Shown: piece by piece, positions 47,613 to 55,164 of the stretch | Numbering within the stretch: the stretch's first letter is position 1 | How the letters are laid out: the number at the start of each line of letters is the position of its first letter | Assembly (NCBI RefSeq): GCF_016888135.1 | Contig: NZ_JACSWB010000146.1 | Span: 1 to 58,712 of the forward strand | DNA length: 58,712 nucleotides | Reading direction: 5' to 3' | Source: Leptolyngbya sp. CCY15150 | GTDB taxonomy: Bacteria > Cyanobacteriota > Cyanobacteriia > RECH01 | Translations under genes and position numbers: made by a program | Notes under the pieces: model-generated | The model's input: only the letters and a program-made list of their open reading frames with translations | Told to the model about the DNA's origin: nothing | The model's database searches: none

Positions 47613-47851
47613 TGGCGTTTGTGCATGATGAGGACTAACGGCTAAGCCGAGCAGCGGCAAGCTACCTTAGCACCTCAATAAGGGGATTTGCCCTGTCTGT
47701 TCCAGCGTGTTGTTATGCAGCCTAACCCACTTGAGACATAGCTTCATTGTGACTGAACATAATTATCAGGCTTAAACCCCTTCCAGACGGGCTGTTCAGT
47801 TGTTCATCGATCTGCTAGCCTGACTTTTTGGTGTAAAAAGCCGTAAAATTG
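47613..47851. other. Gene-free left boundary of the AT-rich cassette
   Basis: No gene, tRNA or direct-repeat attachment site is recognised. Base composition shifts towards AT from about 47740 onward, which marks the left edge of the cassette. Confidence 0.35.
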
Positions 47852-47880
47852 TTGACAATGTCAGAATTGTGGATTAGCCT
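47852..47880 (+). promoter_or_regulatory. Candidate promoter and operator of the QueC-like cassette
   Basis: A perfect TTGACA -35 (47852-47857) lies 17 bp before TAGCCT, a weak -10. The inverted repeat TGACAATGTCA (47853-47863) overlaps the -35 and is a plausible operator for the cassette's own XRE-family regulator. Its role is inference from position. Confidence 0.4.
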
Positions 47881-47916
47881 TGAGATATCAAAGAACTCCG
47901 ACGGGCGGGGGGTGCC

Positions 47917-48549
47917 ATGCCAGATGGGGATATTGTTCACAGCAGATTGCGACGGCTTTATCAAAAACCGTACAAGTGGCTTTGCGAAGGTACTGCAACC
48001 AGTGATGAATGTGCGCGAGCTCTGCTAGAGAAACTCAAGCAAGACATTAAAGCTAAAGGTGATCTCCCCGTTGCTCTCTCTCAAGCAATGGCAGATAGCG
48101 TTGCACATATGAGTAGCCATCTTGAAGAAGCTAGAGAAGGTGACTTTGCCAAACTCAGCGTAGAATTCGAAGCTCTAGCTCAGAAAGCAGATGGACGTCT
48201 GGATTTGAAAGAACTGACTTTACGGGCAGGCAAAAGTTTGCTCAACGATCTCAGAAATGGGCGAGAAGTAGATATCACTCACATTTCTGAAGCTATTTTT
48301 GGGCGGTATATTCATGAGGTTTATGAATCAGAATTTAAAGAACGAATTCCATTGACATTAGAACATCATGCAGGTATTACTCAAGAAACTCTCGAAAAAC
48401 GAATTGAAGACATGCAATCAAGTATAGGTTCTGGGATTCAAAAATTTGCTCAAAATGCTATCAGGAATCAAAGTGTAGCCAAACTATCTCTGCCCCGACG
48501 CCCTTCTCAAAAAGCAATTGATTTAAACGAAGACCTTCTGGCAGTTTAA
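47917..48549 (+). CDS. Hypothetical helical protein, first gene of the QueC-like cassette
   Basis: The 210-residue product has no recognised family. It is rich in charged helical segments (EECARALLEKLKQDIK-like patterns; VALSQAMADSVAHMSSHLEE; LTLRAGKSLLNDLRNG; TQETLEKRIEDMQSSI), with a basic Ser/Pro C-terminus (SLPRRPSQKA). No signal peptide or membrane segment is seen. It starts the four-gene operon; the QueC-like gene follows after 5 nt. By analogy with Qat, where QatB is the partner of QatC, it could be the partner or substrate of the QueC-like protein, but sequence similarity to QatB was not tested. Confidence 0.75.
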   Translation: MPDGDIVHSRLRRLYQKPYKWLCEGTATSDECARALLEKLKQDIKAKGDLPVALSQAMADSVAHMSSHLEEAREGDFAKLSVEFEALAQKADGRLDLKELTLRAGKSLLNDLRNGREVDITHISEAIFGRYIHEVYESEFKERIPLTLEHHAGITQETLEKRIEDMQSSIGSGIQKFAQNAIRNQSVAKLSLPRRPSQKAIDLNEDLLAV

Positions 48550-48554
48550 GCAAA

Positions 48555-49985
48555 ATGAAAAGACGAAATAAACAAGATTCTGGATTTACTTTGCTTTTCG
48601 AGCCTGTAATAAGCGGTGGTGGAACTGTCCGCCTACTTGATCACTCCAGAAACCGAGAAAGCAATGTAAAAGTTGCTGTGGATGATAGCGCATTTAGTTA
48701 TCGAGTACAAAAAGAATTTCCTTCTATAATTGCTGATCTCATTGATCTGGCTATTGCTATTCATGCAGCTGATCGCTTGACCTTTCAAAGTCTAAGACAG
48801 CATCAAACTCGGATTCATGTTGTTCTGCCAGCACGTCATCCAGAAATTCTAAATCAAAACTCTTTCCAAGATAAGCTCTCTGATCTTCTAGAATGGGCGA
48901 CCGGGAGCAGATGGGTATTTGAATTTTCAAAAAGAGTCGATTCGGGACGTGCTGTTGAGCAACAGCCTCTACTTGCGTCTGCTGATCCCTATGTAGGTGA
49001 GGTAGCACTTTGGAGTGGTGGACTTGATGCTCTAGCTGGACTTTACATTCGTCTTAAGAAAACCCCCGAAATATCTTTTATGCTATTTGGGACAGGAAGT
49101 AATGATAACGCTTATGCACGTCAAGAGCAGGTCTTTCAAGCGCTTCAAACGTCTTTTCCTAATCGGCTAAATCTGTGTAGAGTACCAATCCGTTTTTCTG
49201 AAAGTAGTTTGCATACAAAGAATAAAATTTCTCGTGCGAGGGGTATTGTATTCACGTTACTTGGTTCAGCTTGTGCATATCTGATGGGACAGCGGGTTTT
49301 ACACTTATACGAAAATGGCATTGGTGCAATCAATCTCCCCTATCGGAAATCCGCTGTTGGCCTGGATCATTCCCGTTCAGTTCATCCCTTAACCCTTCTT
49401 AGAGTTAGCAATCTGGTATCAGAGTTGGTAGAAGAGGAGTTTAGAGTCCGGAATCCCTTCCTTTTCTGGACAAAAGCTGAGATGTGCCAGCAACTGGCAG
49501 AAGATGCAAAGCGTGAATTACCTTCTTTGACTATTTCATGTGATAGCCCACATCGTAAGCAGCCTATCCAGTGTGGCTACTGCTCATCTTGTATATTAAG
49601 AAAACAAGCACTTGCGGCTTCACGAGTAAAAGACCAAACTCATTACATCGTGCCTCATGCTACTCGTCCAGTGGGTGATATCAGGTTGTGTTTTCAGCAT
49701 ATGCTGGCGCAAGTTTCTACACTTAAGGGATTGCTGAAATATTCAGAAAATACTGCTACCCAATGGGAGTCTTTGACTAAGAGATTTCCTGAGCTTGACG
49801 ACATCGTAGATAGGAATCATGAAGTAGAAGGCTTAACATCTCTTGAAATGAGAAAATGTTTAATTCGGCTCTATCAAACCTATGTTTCTGAATGGGATGC
49901 TGTAGAACCTCAAATTTCAGGAGATTTCTTGAATCAGGTGAGTGTTCAGCAAGTATCTCAAGATTTCCAGCTTGCTATCCAGTAA
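48555..49985 (+). CDS. QueC-like protein (PP-loop ATP pyrophosphatase, QatC/Cap9-like)
   Basis: The 476-residue product is about twice the size of housekeeping QueC (7-cyano-7-deazaguanine synthase). Residues 1-145 form an unassigned N-terminal region. A PP-loop motif LWSGGLDALAGLY (152-164) has Ala in place of the last Ser of SGGxDS. A zinc-site pattern has Cys329, Cys340, Cys343 and Cys346 (CGYCSSC), as in QueC. Long QueC-like proteins occur in the Qat defence system (QatC) and in type IV CBASS (Cap9), so a defence role is plausible. Substrate and product are unknown. The gene lies 5 nt after gene 1 and 18 nt before the XRE-ImmA-like gene. Confidence 0.8.
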   Translation: MKRRNKQDSGFTLLFEPVISGGGTVRLLDHSRNRESNVKVAVDDSAFSYRVQKEFPSIIADLIDLAIAIHAADRLTFQSLRQHQTRIHVVLPARHPEILNQNSFQDKLSDLLEWATGSRWVFEFSKRVDSGRAVEQQPLLASADPYVGEVALWSGGLDALAGLYIRLKKTPEISFMLFGTGSNDNAYARQEQVFQALQTSFPNRLNLCRVPIRFSESSLHTKNKISRARGIVFTLLGSACAYLMGQRVLHLYENGIGAINLPYRKSAVGLDHSRSVHPLTLLRVSNLVSELVEEEFRVRNPFLFWTKAEMCQQLAEDAKRELPSLTISCDSPHRKQPIQCGYCSSCILRKQALAASRVKDQTHYIVPHATRPVGDIRLCFQHMLAQVSTLKGLLKYSENTATQWESLTKRFPELDDIVDRNHEVEGLTSLEMRKCLIRLYQTYVSEWDAVEPQISGDFLNQVSVQQVSQDFQLAIQ

Positions 49986-50003
49986 GGGTAAAAGGGAAAT
50001 GAT

Positions 50004-51197
50004 ATGGCTACTAACATTCTTGACAATATTGACTTACGAAAATTGGGAGAGCTTCTGCAACAAGCGCGGAAGAAGAGTGGGATGACCCAAGCAGATGCTG
50101 CCAAGGTCATCGACGCTGCACGCACTACCATTGTTGCCATTGAAAAGGGAGAGCGGCGTCTCAAGCCGAATGAGTTAATCAAATTAGCTCGTGCTTACGG
50201 ACGAGCTATCAGCGATTTCGTTCGCTCTACTCCTGTTACTGAGCCATTTGAAGTTCAGTTTCGCGCTGCTTATCAACGAAATAAACAAGAAGAAGAACAA
50301 ATAGGCCCAGTTATCCAGCGCTTTGAGGAACTGTGCCACAACTACTTGGAGCTTGAGAAGATCATGGATGCTCCAATTGCTCGTAACTATCCTCAGGAAT
50401 ATAGCGTGAACAATATGCCGATAGAAGCGGCGGCGGAAAGTATTGCTATCGCAGAGCGTCAACGGCTTGGACTAGGAGATGGCCCAATCCCAATGCTGCG
50501 AGACATCTTGGAGCAAAGTGTAGGGATTAAGGTGTTCTACCTAAACATGCCAGCAAAATATTCAGAAATTTACAGCTATGATGAACAACTCGGTGGCTGT
50601 ATAGCAATAAATCTGAGTCACTACGAGGAACGACGGCGTTGGTCGATGGCTCATGGCTATCTCCATTTTCTTGCGCATAGACGAAAGCCTGTTGTTGATT
50701 TTGAAGGACAATACAAAAAAAATCCAGAGAGTGAACGATTAGCCGAAGCTTTTCCAAAGTATTTTCTAATGCCCACAAGTGGCTTGCTGAGTCGATTTAA
50801 TGATATGTATCGAACTCATGGTAAGTTTACTCCAACAAATTTGTTTACTCTTGCCCATTATTATGGGGTGTCTATAGAAGCCCTTGTTTATCGGTTAGAA
50901 GATATGGAACTTCTTCCGTCAGGAACTTGGGATCGTTTGCGTGATCGAGGATTAAAGGTTAGAAAAGTACAGCAAGAACTAGGTTTAGAAGAGATCGAGC
51001 ATCGGGCTGACATACTCCCTATTCACTATCAACACCTTGCTATTGAAGCTTTGGAGCAAGGACTTATCACTGAAGGACGCTTTGCAGATTTCCTTGGTGT
51101 TGATCGGTTAGAAGCTCGACGCATAGCAGAAGCATTACGTGAACATTCTAGCGGGATGCTTGAAGAATCTGCTTATCTAGATTTGCGTCAGGCGTAG
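50004..51197 (+). CDS. XRE-family HTH protein fused to a degenerate ImmA/IrrE peptidase domain
   Basis: The 397-residue product has an N-terminal XRE helix-turn-helix (LRKLGELLQQARKKSGMTQA, residues 11-30, with recognition helix near 40-50). A linker follows, then an ImmA/IrrE-like domain from about 150. In active relatives the zinc protease motif is HExxH; here residues 217-221 read HGYLH, so the catalytic Glu is Gly while both His remain. A possible third ligand, Glu244, lies in SERLAEAF. It probably regulates the cassette and may sense a signal rather than cleave. ImmA/IrrE proteins often pair with XRE repressors. It lies 18 nt from each neighbour, as part of the operon. Confidence 0.85.
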   Translation: MATNILDNIDLRKLGELLQQARKKSGMTQADAAKVIDAARTTIVAIEKGERRLKPNELIKLARAYGRAISDFVRSTPVTEPFEVQFRAAYQRNKQEEEQIGPVIQRFEELCHNYLELEKIMDAPIARNYPQEYSVNNMPIEAAAESIAIAERQRLGLGDGPIPMLRDILEQSVGIKVFYLNMPAKYSEIYSYDEQLGGCIAINLSHYEERRRWSMAHGYLHFLAHRRKPVVDFEGQYKKNPESERLAEAFPKYFLMPTSGLLSRFNDMYRTHGKFTPTNLFTLAHYYGVSIEALVYRLEDMELLPSGTWDRLRDRGLKVRKVQQELGLEEIEHRADILPIHYQHLAIEALEQGLITEGRFADFLGVDRLEARRIAEALREHSSGMLEESAYLDLRQA

Positions 51198-51215
51198 GAC
51201 ACTGGGAGACAAATT

Positions 51216-51767
51216 ATGGAAATCAAACACTCCCATATAGTTCTTGATGCCTGTTGTGTCTTGAACTTCTGTGCTTCTGGGCATTTGATCGAGATCATAC
51301 AGTCCCTGCCAGCTCAAGTCGTAGTCACTGAAGTTGTTAGAGAAAGAGAATTGCTGACTCTCCAACGCTTAGTAGACGAGAGTAATGAGGATACAAATCA
51401 GTTTGAAGCAGCTATGGAAAAGGGGCTACTTGCAGTTACAGATTTTAACTCTGAGAGCGAGGAAGAAACTTTTGTAAACTATGTTTTTGAACTGGGAGAT
51501 GATGGTGAATCAGCAAGCTGCGCAATTGCGGTTCACCGAGAGTGGGCGATCGCTACCGATGATAAGAAAGCAATTTCCTTTTTTCAACGGGAAGCACCCA
51601 ATCTGCAAATCCTATCAACTTTAGCAATAGTCAAGCATTGGTCAGAGGTAGCGAATGTTTCTTCTGCTACTTTACAATCTGTGCTTACTGCTATACGAAT
51701 CAGAGGACGCTACGTACCACACCGTCACCATCCTTTACTAGTTTGGTGGGAAAAGATGATGCGATGA
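51216..51767 (+). CDS. PIN-domain protein, last gene of the cassette
   Basis: The 183-residue product has the PIN nuclease pattern: first acid in IVLDACCVLNFC (Asp11), a second acid in VVVTEVVRERE (Glu39), and the final cluster GDDGESASCAIAVHREWAIA then TDDKKA (Asp95/96, Glu98, Asp115/116). PIN domains are metal-dependent ribonucleases. Following an XRE-ImmA-type protein, it is a likely toxin or effector of the cassette. The first HIP1 octamer of the cassette lies inside this gene (51546-51553). A strong hairpin follows. Confidence 0.8.
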   Translation: MEIKHSHIVLDACCVLNFCASGHLIEIIQSLPAQVVVTEVVRERELLTLQRLVDESNEDTNQFEAAMEKGLLAVTDFNSESEEETFVNYVFELGDDGESASCAIAVHREWAIATDDKKAISFFQREAPNLQILSTLAIVKHWSEVANVSSATLQSVLTAIRIRGRYVPHRHHPLLVWWEKMMR

Positions 51768-51845
51768 TCTCGAAACCACAAGTAAGTTCATCTGGTTATC
51801 TGTCATTAGCTTGCGTGGCTGTATAACAACTTATTAGATCGATCC

Positions 51846-51885
51846 AATCTGCCTATATGCCTCCTAATAGGTGAATAGGCAGATT
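51846..51885 (+). terminator. Hairpin terminator at the cassette end
   Basis: AATCTGCCTAT (51846-51856) pairs perfectly with ATAGGCAGATT (51875-51885), and the TTATTTGCTGCCTATTT that follows is T-rich. It lies 79 nt after the PIN stop. The rest of the gap to 52254 shows no gene or attachment-site repeat. Confidence 0.7.
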
Positions 51886-52254
51886 ATTTGCTGCCTATTT
51901 ATCCTCTGGGGTTAGATAGGCTGCGAGTAATCTACACAATAGCCCTTTCTGGGATAGATAGACAGCAAAGATCCGTATATCTTCCATTTTGTTGTTAAGA
52001 GTACATACGTCTTGTTGATGTTGTATTTGATGCCTGTCTGTAGAGTTGTTATGGAGCATCGTCGCCCTTAGCCGATTGAACTAAGCGTTGCAACGCCAGC
52101 TCATGGACTATGTCCTGCTGCTCTGTGTTGAAGAGGGACTATCGGGGTTCGTCATGATGTGACCCGTGTTTCAGCGATCGCTCCTCTATCCACCCAACTA
52201 TCTAATCCCCAAGGGGGGGGCGGTTTTAGACGACGTGGACTTAAAATTCTAGGA

Positions 52255-53232
52255 ATGAATATCGTCCTGATTGTCAATCCTACCTCTGGCCCCGACAACA
52301 ATGCTCAGCTCTTGCCGAGTCTGATTGCCGCTTTAAAAAAGCAGGGCATTGACGCCGAGATCTGCATCACCAACCCCGAGGAAGACGGTCAGGGGCTGGC
52401 TGCCGCTGCGGCCAAGGCCGGGGCCGACTTGGTGATTGTTGCCGGGGGCGATGGCACGATTGAAGCCGTGGCGCGGGGGTTGGTGCATACTCAGACAGCC
52501 CTAGGCATCATCCCCCAAGGTACCCGCAACAACATTGCCGCCAGCCTCAACATTCCCACCGACCTCGATCAGGCGGTGCAGGTGTTGAAAGCGGGCGATC
52601 GCCGATTGTTTGATATGGGAAAAGCCAACCATCACTACTTTATGGAAGTGGTCGGCATCGGCCTAGAGGCGACCCTGTTTCCCCATGGAGACAGCGTTAA
52701 AGAGGGCATGAAAAGCAACCTCTGGACGGCGATCAAAAGCTTCTGCTTAGCGATCAAAACCTTCTTTCAATTCAAACACCACGGCCTTGTGTTGCGCTTT
52801 GACGGACGCAAGATCTATCTCCGTACCCTGCAGGTCAACGTTTGCAACAGCTCCCGCTACGGAGTGGAATTTTCCTTAGCACCCCACGCCCAAATGGATG
52901 ATGGCAAGCTGGATTTGATCTACATGGATAAACCGTCCAAGTGGGAGCATCTGCGTCAGTTCTTTGCCGCCATGCGCGGGAAACATTTGCCCCATGCTCG
53001 GCTCAGACTATACCAGACCACGGCCGTTGAGGTCAGCAGCTACCGTCCCCTCGATGTCCACGCCGACGGCGAGTGCATTGGCACCACCCCAGTCATGGTG
53101 GAAATCGTGCCCCAAGCGATCGCCATCTGCGTCCCGCCTCCCACGTTGCTAGAGGCTTTTGCCCCAGAGATTGTCCTAGAGACCACGTCAGAGTCCGCTG
53201 ATGCGGGACAAGCCACTCAGGCAAGCCCCTAG
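52255..53232 (+). CDS. YegS/diacylglycerol kinase family lipid kinase
   Basis: The 325-residue product has the DAGK catalytic motifs: MNIVLIVNPTSGPDNNAQLL, IVAGGDGTIEAVARGL (GGDGT at residues 64-68) and QGTRNNIAASL, and ends with a long low-similarity tail. It would phosphorylate a lipid such as diacylglycerol or undecaprenol. The ATG at 52255 is preferred to an upstream start because the kinase fold begins there. It overlaps the convergent PAP2 phosphatase gene by 45 bp. Confidence 0.9.
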   Translation: MNIVLIVNPTSGPDNNAQLLPSLIAALKKQGIDAEICITNPEEDGQGLAAAAAKAGADLVIVAGGDGTIEAVARGLVHTQTALGIIPQGTRNNIAASLNIPTDLDQAVQVLKAGDRRLFDMGKANHHYFMEVVGIGLEATLFPHGDSVKEGMKSNLWTAIKSFCLAIKTFFQFKHHGLVLRFDGRKIYLRTLQVNVCNSSRYGVEFSLAPHAQMDDGKLDLIYMDKPSKWEHLRQFFAAMRGKHLPHARLRLYQTTAVEVSSYRPLDVHADGECIGTTPVMVEIVPQAIAICVPPPTLLEAFAPEIVLETTSESADAGQATQASP

Positions 53233-53898
53233 CCAGATGCCCCCGGCCAGCCAGCCACTAAGCACATCCGTGGGCCAGTGAACCCCGAGATAGAGACGGC
53301 TGAGACCCACCCCCACGGTAACCGCTGCTGCCACTGGAATCGTGACCCCCAGGGACAGGCCGAAGTAGGCGCTGAGATTGGCTGCCAACAGACCATAGAA
53401 TGAAATGGCGCTCATGGAGTGTCCACTGGGGAAGCTGTAGTCCACCGGGCGCTTAGCAGATTCCCACAGATTGGGCCGCTGCCGCTGAAAGAACGATTTA
53501 AAGACGCCGTTGAGTAGCCACGAACCGCATAGCCCCAAGGTTAGGATCAGCGCTGCGGCCGCCTCACCGCGATAGATCAGCACCCCGCCGATCCCCACTA
53601 GCAGGGGAATCGTCACTTCTCCTTGGGCTAAATAGGTAACGACGGTGACCAGGCGATCGCGGGCCGGGCTGGCCAGCTCGTTTAGGGTCAATAGGCATAG
53701 TTCTTCTATGGGGCGTAGCTGATCGACCAGCCAAACGCGGCCCAAAACGGCCCCTAGGGTCAACATGGTGGCCCCGGCCAATAGTCCAGCCAGGCAGTAG
53801 GGCAAGAATGCAATCAACGCCTGGCCCAGCCAGTACATGCGAGGGCTGAGCCCGTCTATAGAGAGTTCCGCCAGTAGCGCGGAGGGAGTAACTAACAT
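53188..53898 (-). CDS. PAP2-superfamily membrane phosphatase
   Basis: The 236-residue product is hydrophobic with about six membrane segments. It has the three PAP2 active-site motifs: KSFFQRQRP, PSGHSM and SRLYLGVHWPTDVL. Such enzymes remove phosphate from lipid phosphates such as phosphatidate or undecaprenyl pyrophosphate. Its 3' end overlaps the convergent lipid kinase by 45 bp, placing opposing lipid kinase and phosphatase genes tail to tail. Confidence 0.9.
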   Translation of the reverse strand: MLVTPSALLAELSIDGLSPRMYWLGQALIAFLPYCLAGLLAGATMLTLGAVLGRVWLVDQLRPIEELCLLTLNELASPARDRLVTVVTYLAQGEVTIPLLVGIGGVLIYRGEAAAALILTLGLCGSWLLNGVFKSFFQRQRPNLWESAKRPVDYSFPSGHSMSAISFYGLLAANLSAYFGLSLGVTIPVAAAVTVGVGLSRLYLGVHWPTDVLSGWLAGGIWLGACLSGLSRISGL

Positions 53899-54342
53899 TC
53901 AGAAAATTGATATGTGGAACATGAACACTCAGGATAGTCGTAGTCAGTCATCGACCTAAGCTCAGGACCAAAAGCTCGGCTTAGACATCATAAAATCTCC
54001 CGAAGAAAGCAGCACGTGCAGGTGCCTGTCTTAACTCAGTTATAAAACGACTGCCCCCGCCTTGAATCACCCCCCAGGCAGGCATAGGTCTCTTTCGGTA
54101 CAAACTTGTCGCCTCTGTATACTTTTCTTGGGCAAGCGGCTCTGTAAATGGACATACCTGAATGGATTACCTATTGACTGTAGCGCCACCCGTGACCCAG
54201 CTTAATGACGTAGATCTGCTGGCCGGTTGAGCGATCGCCCCCTAATCTGATGACAACTACGCAACCGAAACCGCAATGGTAAGCAAGCTCCCTCTCGTCT
54301 ACCTGCTCGGTGCAACGACGATCGCGGCAATGATGTGCAAAC
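53899..54342. other. Gene-free stretch carrying one copy of a dispersed HIP1 repeat
   Basis: No credible gene is present. A copy of the repeat family described at 54187-54285 occupies the right half. The left half (53899-54186) shows no recognised feature. Confidence 0.4.
54187..54285. repeat. Dispersed repeat, type A copy 1
   Basis: The unit reads GTAGATCTGCTGG, then GGTTGAGCGATCGCCCCCTA, then TGACAACTACGCAACCGAAA and GCAATGG. Related copies occur at 55165-55253, 57952-58010 and 58366-58486. All are intergenic and all contain HIP1. Confidence 0.75.
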
Positions 54343-54542: not shown

Positions 54543-55016
54543 TCACTCTCCCATCAGTTCGTAGGGCGTGCAGATCGTTGGTAGTTCATATCCAGCATCA
54601 AGGCTAATCTGGAGCAACTTTTTCTGAATTTGAGCATTCGCGATATGCCTACAGTTCCAGGTTAACAGATAGTCCAATCCATAAACGGTTGCTGCTGCAA
54701 TGTGAAGAGCATCATCTGAGGCTTTGGGTGGGAGATTGCTGTTACTCAAAAACTGCACGGCCAAATCTTGAACAGCTTGATTGATTTCGAGCAAGGGGAA
54801 GTCACGGAGGATTTTGAGGCGGCGACTGGCCATCTCGCCATCTCCTCGTGCTACCTCATCTAAAACCACTTGAGAAATATAGAGCATAAACTGAGAGCGA
54901 CGACCATCCCACCATTGCCGAGTCGTCTCCATGTTAGCCATCAAAATCAGGTTATTACTGGATCTAGCAGTCAGATAACCGATGATACTCGTCTCAACAT
55001 AGATGGTTTCGCTCAT
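54543..55016 (-). CDS. PIN-domain toxin (VapC-like)
   Basis: The 157-residue product has a PIN pattern: IYVETSIIGYLTAR with the first acid (Glu8), QVVLDEVARGD (Glu54), and KASDDALHIAAATVYGLDYL with Asp101/102. The following LLTWNCRHI is typical of PIN proteins. It would be a metal-dependent RNase toxin. The start MSETIYVETS at 55016 fits the family better than an upstream frame. It lies directly upstream of its presumed antitoxin. Confidence 0.8.
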   Translation of the reverse strand: MSETIYVETSIIGYLTARSSNNLILMANMETTRQWWDGRRSQFMLYISQVVLDEVARGDGEMASRRLKILRDFPLLEINQAVQDLAVQFLSNSNLPPKASDDALHIAAATVYGLDYLLTWNCRHIANAQIQKKLLQISLDAGYELPTICTPYELMGE

Positions 55017-55164
55017 GTGGGATTCAAAAATCGGGCGTTGCTGAATAGTAGTACAATCCTGCAAAATTTTGCATGGAATTTCAAGTCTTTCAGCTAGAGG
55101 CTTGTCTCCTGATTCAGCAATGCTGTTGGTCTTGGTTCACGATCAAAAACACCCGAGGGTCTGG

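Follow-up and report, generated by a model that had tools for sequence, protein, structure and literature searches.

Introduction

The closest described relatives of the locus studied here belong to type IV CBASS and to the qatABCD anti-phage defence system. In type IV CBASS, the QueC-fold enzyme Cap9 is paired with a protein that carries a conserved N-terminal tip, and the CD-NTases of these systems have the tip MGGS; Cap9 is without extensions and keeps the QueC active site. The qatABCD operon encodes a KAP-family ATPase (QatA), a TatD-family nuclease (QatD), the enzyme QatC, a presumed chemical modifier of the tip of its partner protein, and, upstream of it, QatB, which is helical, has a disordered but conserved N-terminus and carries the tip MGTS. 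Defence requires the N- and C-terminal extensions of QatC, of which the C-terminal one contributes to the interface with QatB, and two Thr residues of its STRTTHP loop replace the Tyr/Asp that hold deazaguanine in QueC and Cap9 (PMC13279940). The QatC double mutant S156A/S161A is inactive, the single S161A mutant not being reported, and the reaction catalysed by QatC is still to be settled (PMC13279940). The motifs RxRxxxF, ExG, HP and P(x)4TK have been listed for this enzyme, together with its zinc cysteines (PMC13329287). A different set of relatives is found among regulators: fused XRE-COG2856 proteins share operons with toxins of the PIN or RelE type (Makarova 2009, PMC2701414), and COG2856 toxin–antitoxin loci lying by bacterial multiubiquitin genes combine a protein-conjugation-type cassette with an XRE/COG2856 module (PMC4963859).

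Our study concerns a four-gene operon of Leptolyngbya sp. CCY15150, located in a window of 58,712 nucleotides, by which we mean the whole stretch of DNA that was analysed. Its features are as follows.

47852..47863 (+): candidate promoter or operator element TTGACAATGTCA, 64 bp before gene 1, with the palindrome TGACA-N-TGTCA
47917..48549 (+): gene 1, encoding an all-helical protein of 210 aa that is proposed as the QatB-like target (adjacency, AF2 model)
47917..47931 (+): MPDGD, the motif of the gene-1 N-terminal tail, near-invariant in the alignment
48555..49985 (+): QatC-like enzyme (QatC'), 476 aa; QatC kinship by profile, sequence, predicted fold and tree
49014..49031 (+): PP-loop SGGLDA of QatC' (residues 154-159), the same in every cyanobacterial copy examined, SGGLDS in the Chloroflexota copy
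49371..49388 (+): substrate loop SRSVHP of QatC' (residues 273-278), aligned with QatC STRTTHP
49539..49592 (+): zinc cysteines C329, C340, C343 and C346 of QatC', all four invariant in the enzyme alignment
50004..51197 (+): fusion of an XRE helix-turn-helix with an M78 (ImmA/IrrE) domain, suggested to act as antitoxin and as repressor of its own operon (Pfam HTH_3 2.7e-14, Peptidase_M78 9e-25)
50652..50666 (+): HGYLH in place of HExxH, with the Zn ligands kept and the catalytic Glu absent (motif alignment)
51216..51767 (+): 183-aa PIN-like protein, a nuclease proposed to be the toxin (spaced acidic residues)

QatC' has the same QueC core as QatC, matching N- and C-terminal extensions, the four zinc cysteines, the RxRxxxF, ExG, HP and P(x)4TK motifs and Thr/Ser in place of the nucleobase-binding Tyr/Asp, and gene 1, like qatB, lies upstream of the enzyme gene and encodes a helical protein whose disordered N-terminus is conserved. 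However, the two enzymes differ in both loops (SGGxDS and STRTTHP in QatC, SGGLDA and SRSVHP in QatC'), their putative partners differ in the tail (MGTS in QatB, DGD in gene 1), no KAP-family ATPase is encoded among the four genes, and XRE/M78 and PIN-like genes are found here instead of a TatD-family nuclease. The pairing of a QueC-fold enzyme with a protein of conserved N-terminal tip also recalls Cap9, although QatC' differs from Cap9 in its extensions and its active site. Among the operon genes, Pfam and PADLOC searches revealed neither a CD-NTase nor a Cap10-like gene, and a complete Qat or CBASS system was rejected by gene content. The XRE-M78 fusion beside a PIN-like gene matches the arrangement of the fused XRE-COG2856 regulators (PMC2701414), whereas the loss of the HExxH Glu from most copies and the added QatC-like pair set this operon apart. 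It likewise resembles the multiubiquitin-linked COG2856 loci (PMC4963859), with a QatC-like part where those loci have a ubiquitin-like conjugation part. In the portion of the literature that was covered, no description was found of a QatC-like enzyme together with XRE/M78 and PIN-like genes, and we regard this mobile cyanobacterial operon of four genes as new.

Identity of the enzyme

An earlier note on this DNA had read the second gene as an oversized QueC-like protein akin to QatC, and our searches bear out that kinship. QatC' matched the PADLOC QatC profile with E=3e-43 and QatC in the PDB with 9e-21 (single sequence) or 3e-28 (profile), while its score against the NCBIfam QatC model (NF041925) was 155 bits, under the curated cut-off of 280. 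The comparison of a predicted structure with QueC, QatC and Cap9, which the note had proposed as a check, placed QatC ahead of the other two: Foldseek aligned the AlphaFold2 model (pLDDT 81) to QatC 9y01_B over 431 columns (E=1e-17, TM 0.62/0.68), and the QueC and Cap9 matches ranked after it at approximately 200 columns. As the 9y01_B match covers the QatC N- and C-terminal extensions in addition to the QueC core, the 'extra' residues of QatC' correspond to these extensions; 153 residues precede the PP-loop motif, in line with the previous estimate of about 145 additional N-terminal residues relative to QueC. In the phylogenetic tree, the operon copies formed one fully supported clade on a long branch away from seven QatC proteins, and QatC' is therefore a distinct sister family of QatC. 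Ordinary QatC proteins (SGGLDS, STRTTHP) were seen in two other genomes of the phylum (L030 and L016), so both families occur in it.

QatC' is not the housekeeping enzyme of this organism, as the source genome has a QueD-type PTPS gene and, on a different contig, a canonical QueC (C147, 244 bits). QatC' itself scored 18.6 bits against TIGR00364 (QueC), for which the cut-off is 150, and the housekeeping reading was ruled out by score, size, context and the separate QueC gene. The earlier note had also found QueD and QueE genes missing from the vicinity; none was seen among the window proteins examined, and placement of QatC' as housekeeping QueC is excluded. When co-occurrence with QueE was considered as a sign of CDG dependence, matches to QueE were weak in the source genome and in a Chloroflexota metagenome-assembled genome (MAG) that carries the operon. 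The G+C content dips to 0.42-0.44 around the QatC' gene, against approximately 0.55.

The SGGLDA motif and the four intact zinc-type cysteines recorded previously were both recovered on the translated ORF. Ala159 was present in all 21 cyanobacterial QatC' copies examined, encoded by GCT (15 copies), GCC (4) or GCA (2). Invariance of this residue with varying Ala codons indicates purifying selection on a fixed change, and rules out decay or sequencing error as the source of SGGxDA. The strict SGGxDS form was thus absent from the cyanobacterial copies, whereas the Chloroflexota relative (L059, one copy) has SGGLDS. Residues S154, G155, G156 and D158 were invariant in the QatC' alignment, as were RxR, ExG, HP and P(x)4TK, and the full RxRxxxF motif was kept alongside the zinc cysteines. 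The substrate loop read [S/T/A]RSVHP in nearly all copies, with Thr sometimes at the first position and SRAAHP in L050; the invariant T278/T280 of the QatC loop were not kept. By analogy with the QatC double mutant, the lost motif Ser could lower ATP turnover by QatC', and carboxylate activation, which the earlier note had proposed, is a reaction that we infer for QatC' from knowledge of QueC.

Gene 1 and its N-terminal tail

The proposal that gene 1 is a QatB-like partner was upheld in part. Fixed adjacency, a helical fold and a conserved disordered N-terminus speak for it: gene 1 precedes the QatC-like gene in every operon, and its AF2 model (pLDDT 85) is a bundle with seven main helices in which residues 1-8 and the C-terminal tail are disordered. 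On the other side, MGTS is absent and homology to QatB was undetectable. Comparison with QatB by hhalign gave a probability of 0.3%, the fold had no match in the PDB, and no family for gene 1 was found in Pfam, NCBIfam or PADLOC. With the profile, PDB sequence and fold searches all negative, gene 1 was rejected as a QatB homolog. An alternative upstream start was also dismissed, as none lies in frame before the stop at 47881.

The tail of gene 1 parallels the tips of QatB and of the type IV CBASS CD-NTases in position. D3 and D5 were found in 21 of 21 sequences and G4 in 20, one homolog having DAD instead of DGD, and six of the ten invariant positions besides Met1 fall within the first 25 of the 210 residues, so that the N-terminus is where gene 1 is under the strongest constraint. 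Residue 2 is Pro, Ala or Thr, or is absent (MDGD) in four loci (L024, L025, L026 and L029). Pro, Ala and Thr at this position permit removal of the initiator methionine, whereas Met-Asp-Gly-Asp should retain it, so that in either case one residue would stand before DGD in the mature protein. This mature N-terminal residue is variable and is not Gly. The sole exception to the register, MLDGD in L046, occurs where the adjoining enzyme gene is frameshifted. An enzyme that modifies the mature tip would be expected to require such a constant register.

Regulator, PIN-like protein and operator

The XRE/M78 gene was the most conserved of the operon. Across 22 copies, the M78 motif began with HG in 15, HE in six and HD in one; the zinc-binding His residues were kept, but the catalytic Glu was lost in 16 of the 22. 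As HExxH is found in just six of the 22, peptidase activity is unlikely to be generally required. Copies with HE and with HG were scattered over the tree, which suggests repeated change of the motif.

The product of the fourth gene has invariant acidic residues (D11, E82, D95/D96, E98 and D115) spaced as in PIN nucleases. An hhalign comparison with DUF3368 PIN proteins was colinear, although not significant (P=0.0085, probability 2%). No significant family match was obtained in Pfam, NCBIfam or PDB sequences, and assignment to a known PIN family was rejected on these grounds. A separate PIN-domain protein, unrelated to the cassette, is encoded at 54543-55064 (-) (Pfam PIN E=5e-6) and is probably a VapC-type toxin.

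In 20 of 22 operons, that of Chloroflexota (L059) among them, the element TTGACAATGTCA occurred with no more than one mismatch at position -61 to -68 of gene 1. It was also found before the XRE gene in several operons without genes 1 and 2. TTGACA within this element could serve as a -35 box.

Conservation and mobility of the operon

Our scan of 84,980 species genomes yielded 22 loci, and in 21 of these the order gene 1, QatC', XRE/M78, PIN-like was fixed, the remaining locus having a deletion. The earlier note had treated the first two genes as a pair; the pairing held, but the XRE/ImmA and PIN-like genes, absent from that reading, are constant members of the operon as well. Among the four-gene loci was that of the Chloroflexota MAG (L059), with 43% identity. 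A frameshift affected one gene in three of the 21, namely QatC' in L046 and L049 and the PIN-like gene in L050. Furthermore, a full-length enzyme in the same gene order was found in 10 of 386 separately sampled cyanobacterial genomes, a set that shares some genomes with the larger scan.

Ten flanking genes taken from ten loci were mostly unrelated housekeeping genes, and with one Uma2 gene among those tested a defence-island context was rejected. In a congeneric genome (G386), DNA identity of 96% ends at window position 47619 and the cassette is missing; the XRE gene is absent from this genome and from two other close relatives. The absence of the cassette from a congeneric genome and its unrelated flanks indicate a mobile, self-contained unit. 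Homology to G386 resumes at 54272 with a 74-base match, and the missing interval (47620-54271) may include, besides the cassette, a diacylglycerol-kinase-like gene and an adjacent 236-aa ORF. A search of IMG/VR found no relative and phage records gave two distant matches only, on which basis viral carriage was rejected.

The XRE gene occurred in 24 of the 386 cyanobacterial genomes, 13 of which were without gene 1 or QatC'. Relics of the front genes were found directly upstream of XRE, as pieces of gene 1 in L086 and L092 and as the last 17-20 residues of QatC' in L089, L093 and L095. These relics beside a retained XRE gene indicate repeated deletion of the front pair, with XRE and usually also the PIN-like gene left in place. 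All 20 intact PIN-like genes adjoined XRE, and four genomes had XRE without an intact PIN-like gene. A PIN-like gene that is never seen without XRE, in a pair retained after loss of the front genes, points to toxin–antitoxin behaviour, although the counts are small. It also suggests that restraint of the PIN-like toxin would be independent of gene 1 and QatC'.

Discussion

Our preferred reading, to which we assign a probability of approximately 0.58, is that QatC' is a dedicated modifier of the gene-1 tail, coupled to an autoregulated XRE-PIN toxin–antitoxin pair in a mobile unit whose role is most likely anti-phage defence or stress-induced growth arrest. The PP-loop of QatC' would bind ATP, and the two extensions of QatC type, at either end of the enzyme, would hold the helical gene-1 protein, such that the disordered tail (mature X-Asp-Gly-Asp, where X is Pro, Ala, Thr or Met) could enter the active site and be modified. 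The XRE/M78 protein would repress the operon at TTGACAATGTCA and neutralise the PIN-like nuclease, a probable RNA-cutting toxin, and growth arrest would follow once infection or stress changes either gene 1 or the repressor in its state. This reading is supported by the QatC kinship and fold, the fixed gene order, the constrained gene-1 tail, the palindrome at its near-constant distance and the loss pattern. Against it stand the absence of detectable QatB homology in gene 1, the varying non-Gly residue at its mature tip and the one DAD homolog, the lack of a significant PIN family match for gene 4, flanks made up mostly of housekeeping genes, the motif Ser that is lost and the small counts behind the toxin–antitoxin asymmetry. 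A further proposal, in which a toxin–antitoxin-coupled immune system uses a modification other than deazaguanylation (for example at the Asp carboxylates or the non-glycine N-terminus of the DGD tail) and the modified target signals to XRE/PIN, is unlikely.

Other explanations have to be weighed against a dedicated tail modifier. Replacement of the SGGxDS Ser by Ala throughout the cyanobacterial clade, next to an M78 domain that is likewise mostly without its catalytic Glu, would also fit a weak or dead QatC' acting as an ATP-dependent scaffold or sensor that releases gene 1 on infection. We regard this as unlikely, given that the other PP-loop residues, RxR, ExG, HP and P(x)4TK are invariant, beyond the needs of a scaffold, and that the Ser is kept in the Chloroflexota member. 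It is quite improbable that QatC' instead makes or salvages a small molecule, be it 7-deazaguanine or another amidated product, with gene 1 serving as its scaffold or regulator. QatC' lacks the Tyr/Asp pair that recognises the nucleobase and has a replacement as in QatC (PMC13279940), none of the operon genes is for a transporter, a transferase or another biosynthetic function, the N-terminus of gene 1 is under strong constraint, and the Chloroflexota MAG, which may be incomplete, gave no canonical QueC match. This has to be set against the activation of small carboxylates by all characterised QueC-fold relatives, Cap9 using CDG, and against a precursor that is probably available, as the genome encodes QueC and a QueD-type protein.

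The persistence of XRE-PIN without the front genes, and the position of the unit amid unrelated housekeeping genes with its absence from two congeneric genomes, might be explained by a plain XRE-PIN toxin–antitoxin element carrying two passenger genes and having no defence role. However, many families and a second phylum share the two front genes, which stay together in the same order, and the motifs of the enzyme are retained where neutral passengers would decay faster. This makes the explanation very improbable.

QatC' differs from QatC in the target tail, the phosphate loop and the substrate loop, and comparison of the two families can therefore separate residues for chemistry from residues for target choice. 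If our reading is confirmed, the QatC' family would join type IV CBASS and Qat as the third setting where an enzyme of the QueC fold is apparently devoted to a partner protein, and would link such an enzyme with a toxin–antitoxin pair.

A minor observation concerns the shortened operons. In L088, L090, L091 and L096, where genes 1 and 2 are lost, two CTGACATT elements approximately 30-35 bp apart, identified by eye, precede the XRE gene, and this pairing suggests a re-formed operator of the shortened operon.
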